A stretch of DNA of 37,791 nucleotides, taken from a virus. This document shows positions 11,697 to 27,985 of the stretch, piece after piece. The translations under genes were made by a program, and so were the position numbers. Where the stretch lies: positions 1 through 37,791 of the IMG/VR virus record IMGVR_UViG_3300022927_000051; one strand, 5' to 3'. Positions within the stretch are counted from its first letter, which is position 1; every line of letters begins with the position of its first letter. The notes beneath the pieces are model-generated. The model was given only the letters and a program-made list of their open reading frames with translations. It had not been told where the DNA came from and did not search any database.

Positions 11697-13919
11697 CTAT
11701 TTCTTTTTTGCTCTAATTTTAGCAAGGTCTTCGCCGTCAATGTCGTTATCATCGTCAACGTCCATGTGCTTTAACTGAGCAGGTGATAGTTTCTTTTTCT
11801 CAGAAATATAATCACTGAACGATAGGAAAGATTCCTTCTTCATTTTCTTATGACTACCATGACCTTCTTGCATCAATACTGTTACACTCTCATCATCAAC
11901 GTGTACAGTTTCAATGCCATGTTCGAACATTACTTTGTACCAAGAGACATGACCGTTCTCATCTGGTACAGCGTGTTCGCCAGTCAGTGGAGTGCCTTCG
12001 TTCCACTCGTTGTGCATGATCTTTGTCGCGCACATATGTTGATCGCCTTCAAGTGAACCCTTCTCAACTCCGTCCACTTTTGCTTCATCTACTTTTTTCA
12101 TAGGTAGCCCCTTATGTTTAGTTTTTGCGAAATCCTCTAAATCTTTTTCGGACATCGACTTCGCAAGTTTCTTAACTTCATCGGAAGCATTATCCATTTC
12201 ACCGCGCTTATATGCAAGCGCCATGCCCATCATTTTCTGTTGTGCTTGTGATACAGACTTTTCAGACAGTTCAACTGACTCTGCAACACCAGAGACCATG
12301 CGAGCAAACTTCAACTTAGCTCCGCGCGTTTCGAATTTAACTTCATCGATATCGCCTGAAGATGATTCTTGTGTGAGATAGTAAACCATGCCTTTGCTGA
12401 GATTGACTTTAATCAGCGGGAAGATATCACCAGAAACTGTTGAGCGAGTAGCATAGCGGAACACTTGCTCGCCTGCTTTAATGTTAGCACCTTTAAGGTC
12501 TTTCTTGTCTGCAGGCTTTAGATGAAACAGAACCATTGCTTTGATGGGAGAATCTCCAATGACACCAGCGTCTTTATAGCCTTTTCTTCGACCATAGCTG
12601 ATTGCTTTGTCTTCGCCAGAGTCATTGATTGTTTTTACATTAACGACTTCGTATTTCTCTGAAAGTTGGACTTCTTCCATATGTGCTTGGGCACGAGTCA
12701 ACGACTTCTGGTTCTTTTTCGCTTTCATATGACGATTCATAGCGGCAACCATATCAGCACGAGACGTTGCTTTGCTCATCTTTCCACGTTGCTTAGAAGC
12801 AATATTTTTTTGACGCCGAATCTCTGCATTATAATTCTTTGCTTCATCTGTCTGCTCGACTGATTCGAAAAGTTCTGGAAATTCATCTTCAATTTCATCT
12901 TTACGCCATTCTAAAGTATCTTTGTCCATCAAGAACTTAACAATGTTCTTTTTATCACCAGTGATTTGATAATCTCTACCTTTGTCAACTACCTTGACAC
13001 GATGTTTTCTTTGAACCTTTTTGGCTCGTGCTGGTTCATCATCAAAGTAAGGAATATCTACTCTGATAGAGGTAGCTTCAGTAACCTGCTCGACTTCTTC
13101 TTTCATGCCTTTAATATAGTTCAACGTTTCTTTCTTTGCGAGAGGCATTGACTTAAATGTTTTCCACTCTTTGCCGTCAATATAGACAACAATAGGATCA
13201 GTCATTTTAGGACCACGGCGCTTATATGTGTGCTTTGTGCCTTTGTAATCAAGACCAGTCAGAAAATATTCCTTTGCTTCTTTCACTTCAGTCTCTTCTT
13301 TAGGCACACAATTAGGAACTTCTTTGCCGTTCTTTTTCTTTGTGCCGACCATCTCATAACCTTTCCAGCAAGGATCTTTGCCTTTCATTTTCTTTTCTTC
13401 TTCCATATCTTCTTTACCCGCGGCGCGGCCCCTATAATCTGCTTTAACTTTGCTGTCAGGCGTTCGCTCGACATCTTTAATCATCGCTGGTTTTTTCAAC
13501 AACGAGCGGAGTGCTTTCTTGACTTTACCAGGAGAGTCGCTGTCCATATAGAAACGTGGTAGACCTTCGATGTCTACACTGAACTTCGCTTCGTCAATTT
13601 CTTTTTCTTTTTTCTCGCCTGGAGTTTTTTCTTTGGCAAATTTTCTGCTTGCATCTGTTCCCCATTCATGTTTCTGAGGCGAGTATGTTTCCTCTTTAAT
13701 GCCAAACAGTTTCATTGTCTGATCTGGACCCATGACCTCAGCGAACGCGGCAACAACATCATCATTCTTTTTATATGATGATACTTTTGGCATTTTGCCT
13801 TTCTCTAAATCTTTAACGAGACCATCTAACTTACGATTTTTACGTGCCATAGGTGCAAGAACCTTAGCAACTTTCTTCAGTTGAATAGTCTGCACAGCCT
13901 CTTCGATATTGAATGTCAT
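11697..13919 (-). CDS. 740-residue modular protein, probable head-internal polyprotein
   Basis: A long, lysine/glutamate-rich protein that reads as small modules separated by xxE-A or xxE-K junctions like T4 prohead protease sites: IDE-A (110), VKE-A (215), VTE-A (281), TDE-A (359), LSE-K (421), LSE-K (552), VDE-A (612) and ISE-K (707). Recognisable modules include a DPCWKGYEMVG...NCVP segment (182-206) common in marine phages. A DUF3008-like module lies at 553-610 (SQAQQKMMGMALAYKRGE...KTKHKGLP). A capsid-targeting-like SFLSFSDYISE is at 697-707, and an EF-hand/dockerin-like loop DVDDDNDIDGED at 720-731. The Shine-Dalgarno AAGGA precedes the ATG. A virion-internal role is inferred. Confidence 0.7.
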   Translation of the reverse strand: MTFNIEEAVQTIQLKKVAKVLAPMARKNRKLDGLVKDLEKGKMPKVSSYKKNDDVVAAFAEVMGPDQTMKLFGIKEETYSPQKHEWGTDASRKFAKEKTPGEKKEKEIDEAKFSVDIEGLPRFYMDSDSPGKVKKALRSLLKKPAMIKDVERTPDSKVKADYRGRAAGKEDMEEEKKMKGKDPCWKGYEMVGTKKKNGKEVPNCVPKEETEVKEAKEYFLTGLDYKGTKHTYKRRGPKMTDPIVVYIDGKEWKTFKSMPLAKKETLNYIKGMKEEVEQVTEATSIRVDIPYFDDEPARAKKVQRKHRVKVVDKGRDYQITGDKKNIVKFLMDKDTLEWRKDEIEDEFPELFESVEQTDEAKNYNAEIRRQKNIASKQRGKMSKATSRADMVAAMNRHMKAKKNQKSLTRAQAHMEEVQLSEKYEVVNVKTINDSGEDKAISYGRRKGYKDAGVIGDSPIKAMVLFHLKPADKKDLKGANIKAGEQVFRYATRSTVSGDIFPLIKVNLSKGMVYYLTQESSSGDIDEVKFETRGAKLKFARMVSGVAESVELSEKSVSQAQQKMMGMALAYKRGEMDNASDEVKKLAKSMSEKDLEDFAKTKHKGLPMKKVDEAKVDGVEKGSLEGDQHMCATKIMHNEWNEGTPLTGEHAVPDENGHVSWYKVMFEHGIETVHVDDESVTVLMQEGHGSHKKMKKESFLSFSDYISEKKKLSPAQLKHMDVDDDNDIDGEDLAKIRAKKK

Positions 13920-14709: not shown

Positions 14710-14981
14710 TTCTCTACTATCTTTAAGATTAAACCTGTTTCGGCTTCTTCTTTAATCAGCCTGTGATATTCCATTTTCGAGATATTTATCGTATCACCTG
14801 TATTCAATTCGATCGGCATTTTATTTTCGTATTGAAATTTCCAACCATACCCAGCGACAACATAGAGTTCTCTATCTTTATGATCTCTATGCCATACGTA
14901 TTCTTCGTCCTCTTCATCTAGATGAAATTGTCGATAAAAACTATTATCATTAATTATTGTATCTTTGTATACTTTAGACAT
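14706..14981 (-). CDS. Small cupin-like protein, 91 residues
   Basis: A single cupin barrel. The WHRDHKDRELYVVAGYG segment contains HxD-like metal ligands and a glutamate, GDTINIS gives the central turn, and EYHRLI the second histidine motif. Such small cupins are frequent in marine T4-like phages, with unknown substrates. It lies 6 bases after the 585-residue gene and overlaps the following basic protein, so it is likely late and possibly particle-linked. Confidence 0.72.
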   Translation of the reverse strand: MSKVYKDTIINDNSFYRQFHLDEEDEEYVWHRDHKDRELYVVAGYGWKFQYENKMPIELNTGDTINISKMEYHRLIKEEAETGLILKIVEK

Positions 14982-23113: not shown

Positions 23114-23373
23114 TCTTTCATTGCCTCGTATCTTTGTCTTGCGTACTCTGCCGCTTCAGCCATCGCATTCACAAATTCTTCCGCGTCTGGTTGATTTCTT
23201 TTGAGGATCAAATCGCCGACACAATGTGCTTGAAGTTCTTTATCGATCAACTCTTCATATGTCTCTACAATCTCTACACATGGTTCACATGCATCACCAA
23301 TGAATACTGTAGTCGTTGCGCCTTTAGCATCTAACCAAGTACCAGCATCGACATCTAATTTGAACTCACTCAT
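23110..23373 (-). CDS. Hypothetical 87-residue protein
   Basis: An N-terminal strand-rich part with a CEPC pair (FIGDACEPCVEIVETYEEL) and a helical C-terminus (EFVNAMAEAAEYARQRYEAM). The single CxxC could be redox-active or bind metal with a partner, but this is not a thioredoxin fold by eye. Coupled by ATGA overlaps to dCMP deaminase and the AbrB-like gene. Confidence 0.65.
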   Translation of the reverse strand: MSEFKLDVDAGTWLDAKGATTTVFIGDACEPCVEIVETYEELIDKELQAHCVGDLILKRNQPDAEEFVNAMAEAAEYARQRYEAMKE

Positions 23374-23540
23374 TGCGCATATCTCCTAAAATCAAATTTA
23401 CGAATTGTAATTGTACCGTCTTCATTATCTATCCATTCTAACTCATCACCGATGTCGATGTCAAGTTCTTCCATAATCTCATCAGGCAAAGGCAAGATCA
23501 GTTCGCCTGTCAACGGGTCTTCTTCAAGTTTCACTATCAT
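23370..23540 (-). CDS. AbrB/MazE-like swapped-hairpin protein, 56 residues
   Basis: The pattern LILPLPDEIMEELDIDIGD, then LEWIDNEDGTITIRK, is the SpoVT/AbrB fold as seen in MazE antitoxins and in many marine phages. It could bind DNA as a dimer or act as an antitoxin, but no toxin gene is adjacent. The ATG at 23540 is chosen (AGGTGG 4 bases upstream) over an upstream TTG. It overlaps the end of the 55-residue gene out of frame by 17 bases. Confidence 0.72.
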   Translation of the reverse strand: MIVKLEEDPLTGELILPLPDEIMEELDIDIGDELEWIDNEDGTITIRKFDFRRYAQ

Positions 23541-24632: not shown

Positions 24633-24815
24633 ATGAAAATACTGTTAATAGTTTTCATTATTTTCTTGGTCGGTTGTTCAAGTATCGACATTGAACACGA
24701 GAAAGGCGAATTGCCTAAAGTGAAGATAGTAGGTGCAGAAGAATACTGCACCGAGAAGTTAAAGGCTCGCGTGAGAGCGGACGAGTTCATCATCACTTGC
24801 ACCATAAGACTCTAA
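24633..24815 (+). CDS. Small lipoprotein on the opposite strand, 60 residues
   Basis: A lipoprotein precursor: the hydrophobic leader MKILLIVFIIFLVGC ends in a lipobox LVGC with cysteine at residue 15, followed by 45 mostly charged residues containing two further cysteines. It is one of only two plus-strand genes here. It is convergent with, and overlaps by 4 bases, the 53-residue minus gene. A late-promoter box abuts the start and no Shine-Dalgarno is evident. Exported late lipoprotein; a lysis or exclusion role is possible but unproven. Confidence 0.62.
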   Translation: MKILLIVFIIFLVGCSSIDIEHEKGELPKVKIVGAEEYCTEKLKARVRADEFIITCTIRL

Positions 24816-25479: not shown

Positions 25480-25658
25480 TATGCAATTTCTCCAAACATC
25501 AATTCATCTTTCGCGTCAAGCAGGTCCATCTTCAACTCTGCCAGCAGACCAAAAACACTCTGATCTACAGCAGACGGATTTACCGACAACACGCTGTTAA
25601 TACAAGATTCTGCAATCTGAATTGCCTTCATCTTTTCTTCAATTTTTTCGATAGTCAT
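25479..25658 (-). CDS. Hypothetical 59-residue helical protein
   Basis: Starts MTIEKIEEKMKAIQIAES; all-helical, with the Shine-Dalgarno GGAGGTGG 4 bases before the ATG at 25658. The frame extends further upstream, but that part lies inside the previous gene. TAATG coupling occurs on both sides. No family recognised. Confidence 0.62.
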   Translation of the reverse strand: MTIEKIEEKMKAIQIAESCINSVLSVNPSAVDQSVFGLLAELKMDLLDAKDELMFGEIA

Positions 25659-26197
25659 TACGCCACCTCCATTTGATGAAGCTGCCTCATTAAATGAAAC
25701 TCCGCAGGTGCATACTTTTCTAACCACGCGCTGAGGTCTTTGAAGAGGACCACATCGCCATTCACCATCTCATAAGAAACACCGTGGTGTACGTTCTCGC
25801 CGTTGTTCAATACGTCATACGCATCGAACTGCTTCACAATTTCCTTGCGCATATAACCGAACTCGGTGTTGAGAGTGGTGCGAGTGAAAGACACACGGTC
25901 GTCCTTGACCGTGCCATAGTACGGTGCATCCCACTCAGCACAGTGGTCAGCGACATTGAAGTCGATATCATCGACCACGGTCTCACCAACGGAGTACTCT
26001 TGGAAGTACTCGCTCTTGCTGGTGCAAGCAGACTCAACACGCGCCCACCACTCGCGTGACATGTTCTCCTCGATAGTGATATCGAAGATGTAGGTGTTGC
26101 CACCCTTGGGTTTCCAGTACTGCGGGCACTCGCCCTTACCGTCCCAGTCGTGGGCACCGTAGTTTTCGAGGTGTTGGGTTTGGATGATTGCTTTCAT
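25658..26197 (-). CDS. Conserved marine-phage protein, 179 residues
   Basis: The N-terminus MKAIIQTQHLENYGAHDWDG followed by GECPQYWKPKGG is a signature I recognise from many marine phage genomes without known function. It is an alpha/beta protein with no clear catalytic motif. It is the first gene behind a sigma70 promoter and a structured leader of about 88 bases, so it heads a five-gene operon of accessory proteins. The Shine-Dalgarno is TGAGGAATATATT. Confidence 0.72.
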   Translation of the reverse strand: MKAIIQTQHLENYGAHDWDGKGECPQYWKPKGGNTYIFDITIEENMSREWWARVESACTSKSEYFQEYSVGETVVDDIDFNVADHCAEWDAPYYGTVKDDRVSFTRTTLNTEFGYMRKEIVKQFDAYDVLNNGENVHHGVSYEMVNGDVVLFKDLSAWLEKYAPAEFHLMRQLHQMEVA

Positions 26198-26225
26198 AAT
26201 ATATTCCTCAAAAGAAAAAGGGGAA

Positions 26226-26277
26226 GAGAGGAGCAGTGGACTCGGAGTCCCTAGCGAAGAATCGCGCCAGACCTCTC
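26226..26277 (-). ncRNA. Structured 5' leader (three-way junction candidate)
   Basis: In the untranslated leader of the 179-residue gene, an outer 6-bp stem (GAGAGG with CCTCTC) encloses two hairpins. These are GCGA-TTCT-TCGC and GGACT-CCG-AGTCC on the minus strand. The nested pairing is compact and GC-rich in an AT-rich region. It could be a cis-regulatory RNA or an mRNA-stabilising end. No known riboswitch class is recognised. Confidence 0.45.
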
Positions 26278-26291
26278 AACTCAACAAACAA

Positions 26292-26310
26292 ATTATCTCA
26301 CAGGTAGCCA
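26292..26310 (-). repeat. 19-bp promoter repeat, copy 1
   Basis: The plus-strand sequence attatctcacaggtagcca is identical to that at 27002-27020. It covers the -10 box and adjoining spacer of two separate promoters, suggesting shared regulation or a promoter duplication. Confidence 0.8.
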
Positions 26311-26320
26311 AGGAAGTCAA
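26292..26320 (-). promoter_or_regulatory. Sigma70-type promoter with extended -10 (TTGACT-N17-GATAAT)
   Basis: The minus strand has TTGACT, a 17-base spacer and GATAAT preceded by TGA (extended -10). The spacer contains GGCTACCTGTGA, shared with the promoter at 27002-27030. It drives the 25658-26197 operon. Confidence 0.78.
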
Positions 26321-26338
26321 ACTTTTTTTCAACAAAAT

Positions 26339-26458
26339 TTAGAATATTTTGTTATAAGATTTGTGTTTGTTATAACCACGCTTTGCCGCCTTTTTACGGT
26401 CGACCATGACCACTGCCTTGTTAAAGCGGCGAGCATTCTTAGCAACTGGATTTTTCAT
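26339..26458 (-). CDS. Small basic peptide, 39 residues
   Basis: MKNPVAKNARRFNKAVVMVD followed by RKKAAKRGYNKHKSY: a strongly basic peptide with a leading MKNPVAKN motif that I recognise from short unannotated genes of cyanophage-type genomes. GGAG lies 6 bases before the ATG at 26458. It could bind nucleic acid. The frame continues upstream without support. Confidence 0.65.
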   Translation of the reverse strand: MKNPVAKNARRFNKAVVMVDRKKAAKRGYNKHKSYNKIF

Positions 26459-26540
26459 AACAAACTCCGAATAAAAAACAGTGAGTGGTGCAACATAGCA
26501 ATCGGTAGCAATTTTCGAACGCACACACTCACCAAAGAAC

Positions 26541-26966
26541 TCAGGCCTCCAAGACGTAGGGCTTGTTCCACTTACCAGCATCAATGTCAAGGTAGTGCGA
26601 ACAGTGGAAGTAGTCAGTCATGGCATCAGACTCATCGAAGAACTGGTCGCCTTTCATGGCCGCTACCAACTCTTTGTAGAAGTTACCGATCTCGATATCA
26701 CCAGTCTCTTCAGCCCACTTGTCAGCCCAGAAGTGGTTTACTTGAAGATAGTCACCGACTGGGTAAGACTCTTCACCACGGCGAGCCGCCAACTGGTCAT
26801 TGTGTCGCTGGGCAGACCCGATCAGGTCGAGCTTGCCGCTCTTCAGAGTCACGACCAGTGACATGTGATGACGAACAGCGATAGTGCCTTTCACGCCGTA
26901 CTTTTTCAGTACCGCTTTGATACCAGGAGCAAGTCGCTTTTTGTCTTCTTGTGATACGTAAGCCAT
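26541..26966 (-). CDS. Conserved marine-phage protein, 141 residues
   Basis: Begins MAYVSQEDKKRLAPGIKAVL and contains KYGVKGTIAVRHHMSLVVTL, a pattern seen in many marine T4-like phages with no known function. The ATG at 26966 is preferred over the TTG at 26972. GAGAGAGA precedes it. It is expressed from the promoter at 27002-27030, probably together with the 39-residue basic peptide. Confidence 0.72.
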   Translation of the reverse strand: MAYVSQEDKKRLAPGIKAVLKKYGVKGTIAVRHHMSLVVTLKSGKLDLIGSAQRHNDQLAARRGEESYPVGDYLQVNHFWADKWAEETGDIEIGNFYKELVAAMKGDQFFDESDAMTDYFHCSHYLDIDAGKWNKPYVLEA

Positions 26967-27001
26967 AATCAAATCTCTCTCTCAATCAACGTTACAGGAG
27001 T

Positions 27002-27020
27002 ATTATCTCACAGGTAGCCA
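27002..27020 (-). repeat. 19-bp promoter repeat, copy 2
   Basis: Identical to 26292-26310 (attatctcacaggtagcca on the plus strand), again positioned as the -10 box plus adjoining spacer. Confidence 0.8.
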
Positions 27021-27030
27021 TAGAAAACAA
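27002..27030 (-). promoter_or_regulatory. Promoter with extended -10 and weak -35
   Basis: GATAAT with an upstream TGA and the shared GGCTACCTGTGA spacer. The -35 position holds only TTGTTT. It lies about 40 bases before the 141-residue gene. The extended -10 probably compensates for the weak -35. Confidence 0.6.
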
Positions 27031-27115
27031 TGCAATATTCACACTTTCTGAGAACAGTTTTTCATAAGAAATCACGGGCAAATAACAAAAAGAAATAAGT
27101 AATGAAATCAATGAC

Positions 27116-27319
27116 TTACATGTCTCGCAGAATCGCGGCGAATTCGTCGGCCTGAGCTTCTATAGGATCACAGTGGGCAACTACTTCACGCAACACTGCC
27201 TGCGCTCCAATGACTTCCTGGTAGCTCACATCATGCTTTGCCTCTGCCCAGTCAACATAGCTCATCGCCAAGTCATAAACTTCTAACGCTTCGGCGGCTT
27301 CTTTATAACCAATTTTCAT
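27116..27319 (-). CDS. Hypothetical 67-residue helical protein
   Basis: MKIGYKEAAEALEVYDLAMS, then a long amphipathic helix and acidic end. The ATG at 27319 is chosen for the GAGGTG Shine-Dalgarno 7 bases upstream. A sigma70 promoter directly precedes it. No family recognised. Confidence 0.65.
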   Translation of the reverse strand: MKIGYKEAAEALEVYDLAMSYVDWAEAKHDVSYQEVIGAQAVLREVVAHCDPIEAQADEFAAILRDM

Positions 27320-27354: not shown

Positions 27355-27383
27355 ATTATCGCTGGTTTTGAGGTGCCTGTCAA
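27355..27383 (-). promoter_or_regulatory. Sigma70-type promoter (TTGACA-N17-GATAAT)
   Basis: The minus strand has exact TTGACA, a 17-base spacer and GATAAT about 35 bases before the 67-residue gene. Confidence 0.8.
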
Positions 27384-27405: not shown

Positions 27406-27708
27406 TTAAAAATTAACGTTTTTGAGTTCTGCGAACCACACCTGTTCGTTCGGATTTAGAGGCAATCTAGCGTACTCTCGTGCCTCTTTTTCATAGGGAT
27501 GATTGTTGTAGCCGTGACGAATGTACAGCAGGACGTATGTAAAATAAAACTTGAGTATGCCCATCCTTCTAATCTGATAGCAATGCATTAACTCGTGTTT
27601 GAATAGTTGATCAGTCGGATATCTCATTCTAAAAAATATGAAAGGGTAGACGACCATGCCGCCCGCCCAAAACATCCACCAACAATGTCTAAGTATCCGA
27701 AACTTCAT
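27406..27708 (-). CDS. Putative small zinc metallopeptidase (HExxH), 100 residues
   Basis: The zincin motif HELMH occurs in FKHELMHCYQIRRMG, followed about 30 residues later by HPYEKEAREYA, whose glutamates could supply the third zinc ligand. An N-terminal hydrophobic segment (CWWMFWAGGMVVYPFIFF) suggests membrane association. The ATG at 27708 is chosen because AAGGAG lies 7 bases upstream. It may process an envelope or phage protein, but the short length means the activity could be lost. It is the last gene of the helicase operon. Confidence 0.65.
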   Translation of the reverse strand: MKFRILRHCWWMFWAGGMVVYPFIFFRMRYPTDQLFKHELMHCYQIRRMGILKFYFTYVLLYIRHGYNNHPYEKEAREYARLPLNPNEQVWFAELKNVNF

Positions 27709-27985
27709 TTGAATGCTCCTTGTCATGAATGAACAATTGAAACAGCGTGTAGTGCATAACCTTGATCAGGTCTTTTCTCCACTCTTCTGGTGTCTCGCCC
27801 TTCTTGCCATATCGATCATGATACTTCTCAATATTGCCGAGACAGAAGCCAGTACCATGTCCTTTTGCGATGATTGAATCCATCGTTTGTTTGCCAGCAT
27901 TGACATAGTGTTGTTTATATGTCGAATCGATATATTGCTTGAACTCTTCAATCAGCTTGTCTTCATTAAATCTATATTCAATCAT
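27689..27985 (-). CDS. DUF3310-like protein, 98 residues
   Basis: The core GTGFCLGNIEKYHDRYGKKG followed by RKDLIKVMHYTLFQL matches the DUF3310 pattern (a GN..KY.xRxGxK segment with a later DLxKxxxY), widespread in phages and sometimes suggested to be nucleotide-related. It overlaps both neighbours (8 and 20 bases). The precise role is unknown. Confidence 0.68.
   Translation of the reverse strand: MIEYRFNEDKLIEEFKQYIDSTYKQHYVNAGKQTMDSIIAKGHGTGFCLGNIEKYHDRYGKKGETPEEWRKDLIKVMHYTLFQLFIHDKEHSNEVSDT

Follow-up and report, generated by a model that had tools for sequence, protein, structure and literature searches.

Cassettes called PeSL (promoter-early stem-loop), which are said to have been described by Arbiol in 2010 and by Comeau in 2014, reportedly occur in T4-type phages. 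They combine an early sigma70-like promoter with a stem-loop that is an effective terminator, and genes are exchanged by recombination between copies. At Class I activator promoters (CRP type), the activator site lies upstream of the -35 element and is active at positions one helical turn apart, and the activator contacts the alpha C-terminal domain of the polymerase. The available part of one study describes PeSLs as motifs in which a promoter is joined to a stem-loop, and through which related T4-like phages are said to shuffle genes, and judges them an unlikely route for its own gene block in cyanophage S-PM2 (PMC4503421). In the accessible sections of another, the phages RB69, RB49, RB43, 44RR and Aeh1 have phage-specific early-promoter motifs, many of them before novel ORFs and often with A-rich DNA upstream; the -35 region of T4-like early promoters is given as GTTTAC, with G preferred at -33 (xTTGAC) in RB49, RB43 and Aeh1 (PMC1524935). 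Structured RNAs have been described as well: manA and wcaG, from marine metagenomes, are also present in T4-like cyanophages, and manA is commonly found in 5' UTRs according to the extract of that report (PMC2864571).

Here we analysed a stretch of viral DNA of 37,791 nucleotides (the window), in which an initial annotation had pointed to an identical 19-bp element in two promoters. Both copies of ATTATCTCACAGGTAGCCA (plus strand) are exact and lie 710 bp apart, and 0.02 such repeats are expected by chance in shuffles of the window; the same pair, at the same spacing, is present in 4 near-identical viral contigs (99.8-100% identity). Both promoters serve genes of the minus strand; on that strand the element is TGGCTACCTGTGAGATAAT and consists of the proximal spacer, TG and the -10 hexamer GATAAT, that is, an extended -10 (TGnGATAAT). 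In agreement with that annotation, the repeat covers the -10 and part of the spacer of two promoters that differ at the -35, P3 being TTGACT-17-GATAAT and P2 TTGTTT-17-GATAAT. TG stands one base ahead of the -10 in both, with TGn directly before the hexamer (TGAGATAAT), and host sigma70 polymerase with an extended -10 contact is the likely user of both promoters. Repeated 17-mers, of which 14 were counted on the two strands of the window (12 of the 14 displayed), group into three repeat pairs, namely the 19-mer and two 18-bp pairs elsewhere, so that a length of 19 bp is not unique there; the noteworthy feature of the 19-mer is its register on two promoters. The search for further copies had a mixed outcome, with none in the window at up to 3 mismatches and two variants beyond it, on the overlapping contig G001. 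A degenerate form of the element (GGCTACCYRTGAGATAAT) has one further match, at 12092-12109, with 3 mismatches and without a -10.

The sequence flanking the two copies had been described as different. In an ungapped comparison of P2 and P3, 27 of the 50 nt ahead of the 19-mer agree (composition shuffle p 0.00055), and these matching regions contain a second common motif, E1, at the same position in both; the description is right only in part. The features of the locus are collected in the Table.

Table. Features of the P2/P3 locus and of the related sites discussed in the text (window coordinates unless a contig or locus is named)
Feature	Position	Strand	Remarks
56-aa AbrB/MazE-like protein	23370-23540	-	PF04014, E 3.5e-8
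179-aa protein, P3-driven (predicted)	25658..26197	-	unmatched in Pfam and PHROG (E 0.01)
Putative leader RNA with a three-way junction, downstream of P3 and ahead of the 179-aa gene	26223..26279	-	model match 58.5 bits, E 1.9e-12, this copy being one of the 20 model sequences behind the score
P3 19-mer	26292..26310	-	proximal spacer, extended -10 TG, -10 GATAAT at 26292-26297
P3 -35, TTGACT	26315..26320	-	spacer 17
E1 of P3, TTATAACAAAATATTCTAA	26339..26357	-	18 nt before -35; overlaps stop codon of the DUF7230 gene
39-aa DUF7230 protein (PF23876)	26339..26458	-	second gene after P2; last codons are E1 of P3
141-aa protein, P2-driven (predicted)	26541..26966	-	phrog_10415 (unknown function)
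P2 19-mer	27002..27020	-	-10 GATAAT at 27002-27007
P2 -35, TTGTTT	27025..27030	-	spacer 17
E1 of P2, diverged	27049..27067	-	18 nt before -35; 3/14 fixed positions changed
AATCAATnACTTR sites	27106-27118	+	also contig G001 (L170) near 14867-14915; L094, L101, L102, L111, L113, L199

Among the best 30 of 2596 records, the DNA polymerase was nearest to Marine virus AG-345 and cyanophages (~48%), and for two other proteins the nearest named phage was Methylophilales phage Melnitz (~50% over the matched parts). The nearest records for three proteins were cyanophages, Marine virus AG-345, Methylophilales phage Melnitz and Pelagibacter phage HTVC008M, and from such protein relatives we infer a marine origin of the virus. 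Two small neighbours were also recorded. A 60-aa ORF at 24633-24815 (+) is on the strand opposite to its neighbours, and its N-terminus, MKILLIVFIIFLVGCSS, is what we take to be a lipoprotein-like motif. The other, a 106-aa protein at 27406-27726 (-), matches phrog_15610 'protease' (E 2.9e-5) and contains HELMH, presumably a zinc-protease-like motif.

E1 was recognised in the upstream regions of relatives of the 141-aa and 179-aa genes, which had been collected by protein and not by promoter (48 of 80 loci viewed). It reads TTATnnCAAAAnnnTCTAA, is followed by A-rich DNA, and is a directional motif ahead of the sigma70-type promoters of several genes. Together with its A-rich end and at up to 3 mismatches, it occurs exactly twice in the window, at P3 and P2 (0.24 expected); the 18-nt distance given for both was measured on the identical sequence in contig G001. 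At up to 2 mismatches we found 50 sites in 23 of 25 viral records, most of them picked since a locus had shown E1, always on a single strand per record and with none for the reversed control. A promoter of score at least 9 lies within 75 nt of 39 of the 47 distinct sites, 38 of these 39 being in phase, and the remaining 8 lack a promoter of that score in this range. When promoters were gathered regardless of E1, the motif (up to 3 mismatches) preceded 14 of 42 in the 141-aa family (reversed control 0) and 5 of 36 in the 179-aa family (reversed control 1); E1 is not universal among the promoters of both gene families. At up to 2 mismatches it was missing from seven of eight named phage records, the eighth, Pelagibacter phage HTVC008M, having one 2-mismatch site.

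Two further kinds of site were noted around these promoters. AATCAATnACTTR, which fits the IHF consensus WATCAAnnnnTTR, is found upstream of several promoters, in many cases as two sites with a 36-bp separation and in some directly behind E1; 55 distinct sites were found, not all of them near promoters. A third promoter-like site, TTGACA-17-GATAAT at 27355-27383 (-), precedes a 67-aa gene (27116-27319) and has a different spacer and no E1. As a separate candidate, the upstream likeness of P2 and P3 was considered as the ends of DUF7230 genes, and was rejected since relatives carry E1 without a DUF7230 gene there; moreover, an open frame of at least 30 codons terminates at only 15 of the 47 distinct E1 sites, which also opposes this reading.

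The position of E1 relative to the -35 proved to be strongly constrained. A scan of viral sequences for E1, any gap of 4-34 nt, and then TTG and ATAAT at promoter spacing returned at least 120 stretches, and loci L219-L335 (117 loci, among the matches listed) were taken for the count, so that the window's near-identical contigs L001-L003 lie outside it. Distances in the 93 distinct modules were 7 nt (4 modules), 8 (42), 17 (3), 18 (18), 19 (4), 26 (2), 28 (9) and 29 (11), that is, 91 of the 93 modules among the matches listed have E1 7-8, 17-19 or 28-29 nt ahead of the -35, and the two at 26 nt seem fortuitous. Nine periods were compared, of which 10.3 bp was best, with a Rayleigh R of 0.948 for these 93 viral modules among the matches listed, which are not independent of one another. 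Downstream ORFs of at least 30 aa follow 91 of the 93 (again among the matches listed) and fall into 42 gene clusters. Within a single gene cluster the distance shifts by whole turns, with 4, 3 and 3 modules at 8, 18 and 29 nt, and another cluster has 4, 4 and 1 modules at 8, 18 and 28 nt.

As a control, the identical pattern was run on bacterial and archaeal genomes. This gave 63 stretches, one of which failed the counting rule, and the distances in the resulting 62 modules were scattered, with an R of 0.17 at 10.3 bp. The seven favoured distances accounted for 23 of the 62, against 14 if evenly spread. Related Neobacillus loci contribute to this slight excess, as do two contigs of probably viral origin. 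These contigs, both from MAGs, hold the 2 of the 63 stretches that look canonical (L357 and L369), and each carries another E1-like site. The possibility that E1 is a host-chromosome element was rejected on account of the scattered distances. The reversed motif returned 9 stretches from the viral contigs, against at least 120 for the forward motif, and the 8 that could be counted were scattered.

In ten records read whole or nearly so, all 11 promoter-bearing exact E1 sites are in phase, as are 12 of 13 such sites with one mismatch; the reversed control had no promoter-bearing site at 0-1 mismatch. Of the two-mismatch sites 3 of 5 were in phase, against 2 of 3 in the reversed control; the three-mismatch sites gave 9 of 16 against 3 of 12, and some of these are true sites read at a shifted position. 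Judged by these in-phase counts against the reversed control, E1 sites with 2-3 mismatches carry little information, and the E1 of P2 belongs among such weak sites. Taken as a whole, the helical phasing, which comes from sequence comparison, is strong evidence of a physical contact at the promoter.

The part of the promoter occupied by the 19-mer behaves differently between and within phages. Orthologous promoters in relatives keep the -35, the -10 and often the TG, and the spacer is mostly changed (by eye; 48 of 80 loci for one set). Non-homologous promoters of the same phage, by comparison, had a spacer identity of 0.504 (36 pairs) versus 0.371 between phages (323 pairs), a difference reached in 0 of 5000 label shuffles, with genes grouped by eye and with the four rows of this virus and three weak promoter calls judged spurious omitted. 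With all 35 rows and genes grouped by blastp, the values were 0.486 (47 pairs) and 0.342 (509 pairs; 0 of 2000 shuffles). Record G024 is a clear example, with the spacers TCTTGTTTTGATTATGA, TCTTGTTTTGAATATGA and TCTTGTTTCGAATATGA before three different genes. Each phage thus tends toward its own spacer dialect, as far as these sequences indicate.

For the present virus the dialect could be followed on contig G001, which is 99.93% identical to the window over 12.5 kb and extends past it, adding two promoters outside the window. These are GGCTGGTTGTGAGATAAT, with E1 at 18 nt, and GGCTACCCATGAGATAAT, with E1 90 nt away and two IHF-like sites in between. The two variants, together with the within-phage dialects of the relatives, support the suggestion in the initial annotation of an extended -10 promoter class specific to this phage. 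Promoter segments copied or recombined within the lineage, under some selection on the extended -10 and the neighbouring part of the spacer, may explain why P2 and P3 match exactly.

Cassettes and genes may also have been recombined. Loci L011/L168 encode a protein that is 87% identical to the 141-aa protein and is its nearest relative among those that have diverged; its gene is driven by a different promoter followed by a leader RNA, and this RNA is of the type that in the window precedes the 179-aa gene. Such an arrangement is the pattern expected of mobile cassettes, judging from the sequences compared, among which no contig with the 710-bp unit excised or duplicated came to notice.

The leader RNA downstream of P3 starts within ~7 nt of the expected transcript start. 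Its architecture is helix P1, CUGG, helix P2, CUAG, helix P3, ACUG and P1', and a pattern search returned 83 stretches, of which 29 distinct ones remained when pairing was required in helices P1 and P2. Downstream ORFs follow 27 of the 29 and form 16 clusters, so the RNA stands ahead of unrelated genes. We aligned 20 of the 29 (alignment A2), leaving out seven near-duplicates and two doubtful members (L470, L476). In these 20, both partners vary in 15 of the 21 pairs, and the covariation score was reached by 0 of 500 shuffles. The third helix, which apart from its closing pair had no use in selection, so that four of its five pairs are selection-free, pairs in 90% of the cells. Among 33 model matches, both partners vary in 16 of the 19 pairs, in an alignment that was fitted to the model. 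The constancy of CUGG, G, CUAGG and CACUG is no evidence, as these letters were fixed by the search pattern. Since the fold energy of the window copy alone is not unusual (z -1.10), the case for the leader rests on covariation.

The diverged members L440 and L102 had been held out of the leader model, and L242 and L294 were taken as chance; the model recovers L440 weakly (21.7 bits) and L102 not at all. Members outside its seed were found in L161, L464 (a second copy), L232 and L252, and weakly in L262, with the RNA of L232 and L252 immediately after an E1 promoter. Copies are in tandem in L462, one is nested in the third arm of another in L496 (by eye), and in L232, L252 and L262 the second copy is circularly permuted around a common helix P2 (by eye). 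Tandem, nested and permuted copies of this kind may indicate that the RNA has a compact fold with a function of its own, perhaps as an aptamer, a ribozyme or a protein site. No Rfam 15 family was found at the leader in the window (E up to 5) or at the motif in 11 relatives (E up to 0.5), no copy was found in phage isolates by blastn with two queries, and a terminator scan of the window called no site either at the leader or in the interval between the two genes. By eye, a T-rich run that resembles an attenuator or terminator follows the closing stem, a few bases on, in the window (26200-26222) and also follows it in L409, L244, L449 and L498, and a leader group with GAGAGACUU is without it. 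A second leader sequence group (GAGAGACUUCUGGAG...) lies downstream of TTGAC-type promoters in L464, L465, L467, L478, L483, L505 and L514.

We consider it probable (about 0.62) that P2 and P3 are copied early-type sigma70 promoter cassettes of a T4-like lineage with a probable upstream activator site, a reading that builds on what the sequences show, namely the repeat, the common E1 at equal distance, the phasing in many phages, the within-phage spacer likeness and the leader covariation. The same promoter stretch would stand at two genes because both seem to carry copies of one copied-around switch, the T4-like lineage having placed a cassette family in front of accessory genes. In full, a cassette would run from E1 (19 bp) through a filler, the -35, a 17-bp spacer and the extended -10 TGnGATAAT to, sometimes, a leader RNA. 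The filler would keep E1 ~8, 18 or 28-29 nt from the -35, on one helix face, and the leader, in the copies that have one, would open the transcript, where it may protect or regulate the message. Host RNA polymerase would use P2 and P3, probably early, and E1 may be occupied by a DNA-binding protein, or by the alpha C-terminal domain of the polymerase, as an aid to recruitment. The contact with E1 would come from the polymerase face and be made by an activator of its own or, on bent DNA, by the alpha C-terminal domain. The 19-bp identity would stem from copying or recombination of promoter segments, and the extended -10 and adjoining spacer would be kept by selection; the 19-mer would not itself be the operator of a regulator.

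Alternative accounts concern either the upstream element or the repeat. That E1 works without a dedicated factor, as a curved A-tract-rich region or an UP-type subsite for the alpha C-terminal domain, with the phasing due to intrinsic bending, strikes us as rather unlikely. A-tracts about one turn apart are frequent in the filler between E1 and the -35 (by eye), and an A-rich region at -40 to -44 is frequent in T4-like early promoters in the available text of PMC1524935. However, E1 is directional and lies further up, centred by our own count near -53, -63 or -73, and the relatives that were collected via the two genes, not via E1, also agree at positions outside A-tracts (TTAT, C, TCTAA).

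For the repeat, a mere trace of recent duplication or short recombination, with function limited to the sigma70 contacts, is an unlikely explanation, if by no means a far-fetched one. Orthologous promoters differ in the spacer, as it would predict, and cassette exchange would leave short direct repeats. Against it, all 19 positions were kept while the 50 nt upstream decayed to about half identity, for which a short gene conversion could still account, and two further promoters of this virus retain most of the 19-mer. The initial annotation, whose interpretation is partly supported by our results, had instead read the exact identity through the spacer as the sign of a bound regulator and named the AbrB/MazE-like protein as one conceivable ligand. 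A bound regulator is plausible, but its site is placed at the phased E1 and not at the 19-mer, as relatives mostly keep the promoter and change the spacer. In favour of this ligand, a small protein of DNA-binding type with a PF04014 match is encoded ~3 kb from the copies. Against it, the 19-mer has no dyad symmetry (by eye), and the AbrB/MazE-like protein was detected in 4 of 9 other records with E1-type promoters (tblastn, E <=0.01; these records may be incomplete). An operator for a phage regulator such as this protein, co-regulating both operons, is very improbable, and both the 19-mer as operator and AbrB as its ligand lack support.

If the copied-cassette reading is correct, a phased contact would have been found in phages that, among those examined, are known only as sequence, giving a direct handle on phage takeover of host transcription and on the insertion and expression of accessory genes; the leader, as a structured RNA, can be tested in vitro without phage or host. 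More tentatively, and at somewhat less than even odds in our estimation, a T4-like group that is absent from the eight named records would have a mobile cassette made of a sequence-specific activator site (E1) 1-3 turns up, a promoter with a spacer homogenised within each phage and a new family of three-way-junction leader RNA. In the literature available to us, partly as extracts, we found nothing that matches the phased element or the leader RNA, or that places IHF at promoters of this type.

The closest known system, on the portion of its literature at hand, is the PeSL cassette. In both cases a sigma70-like promoter is repeated ahead of accessory genes, here as P2, P3 and two variants, with similar families in relatives and a timing that is presumably early. 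One gene carries different cassettes in the window and in L011/L168, as exchange of the PeSL kind might produce. The present cassettes differ by adding an upstream, helically phased E1, and their RNA appears to be a conserved three-way junction downstream of the promoter. With the T4-like early promoters, as described in the accessible sections of PMC1524935, P3 and many relatives share the xTTGAC form (TTTGAC of P3 agrees with GTTGAC at 5 of 6 positions, ATTGTT of P2 is a poor fit), whereas TGnGATAAT and an E1 at several phased distances contrast with an A-rich region fixed at -40 to -44. The leader also differs from manA and wcaG, in that it matched no Rfam 15 family. Finally, E1 resembles the sites of Class I promoters of the CRP type in lying upstream of the -35 at whole helical turns, as a candidate activator site, but it is asymmetric and unlike the CRP site.
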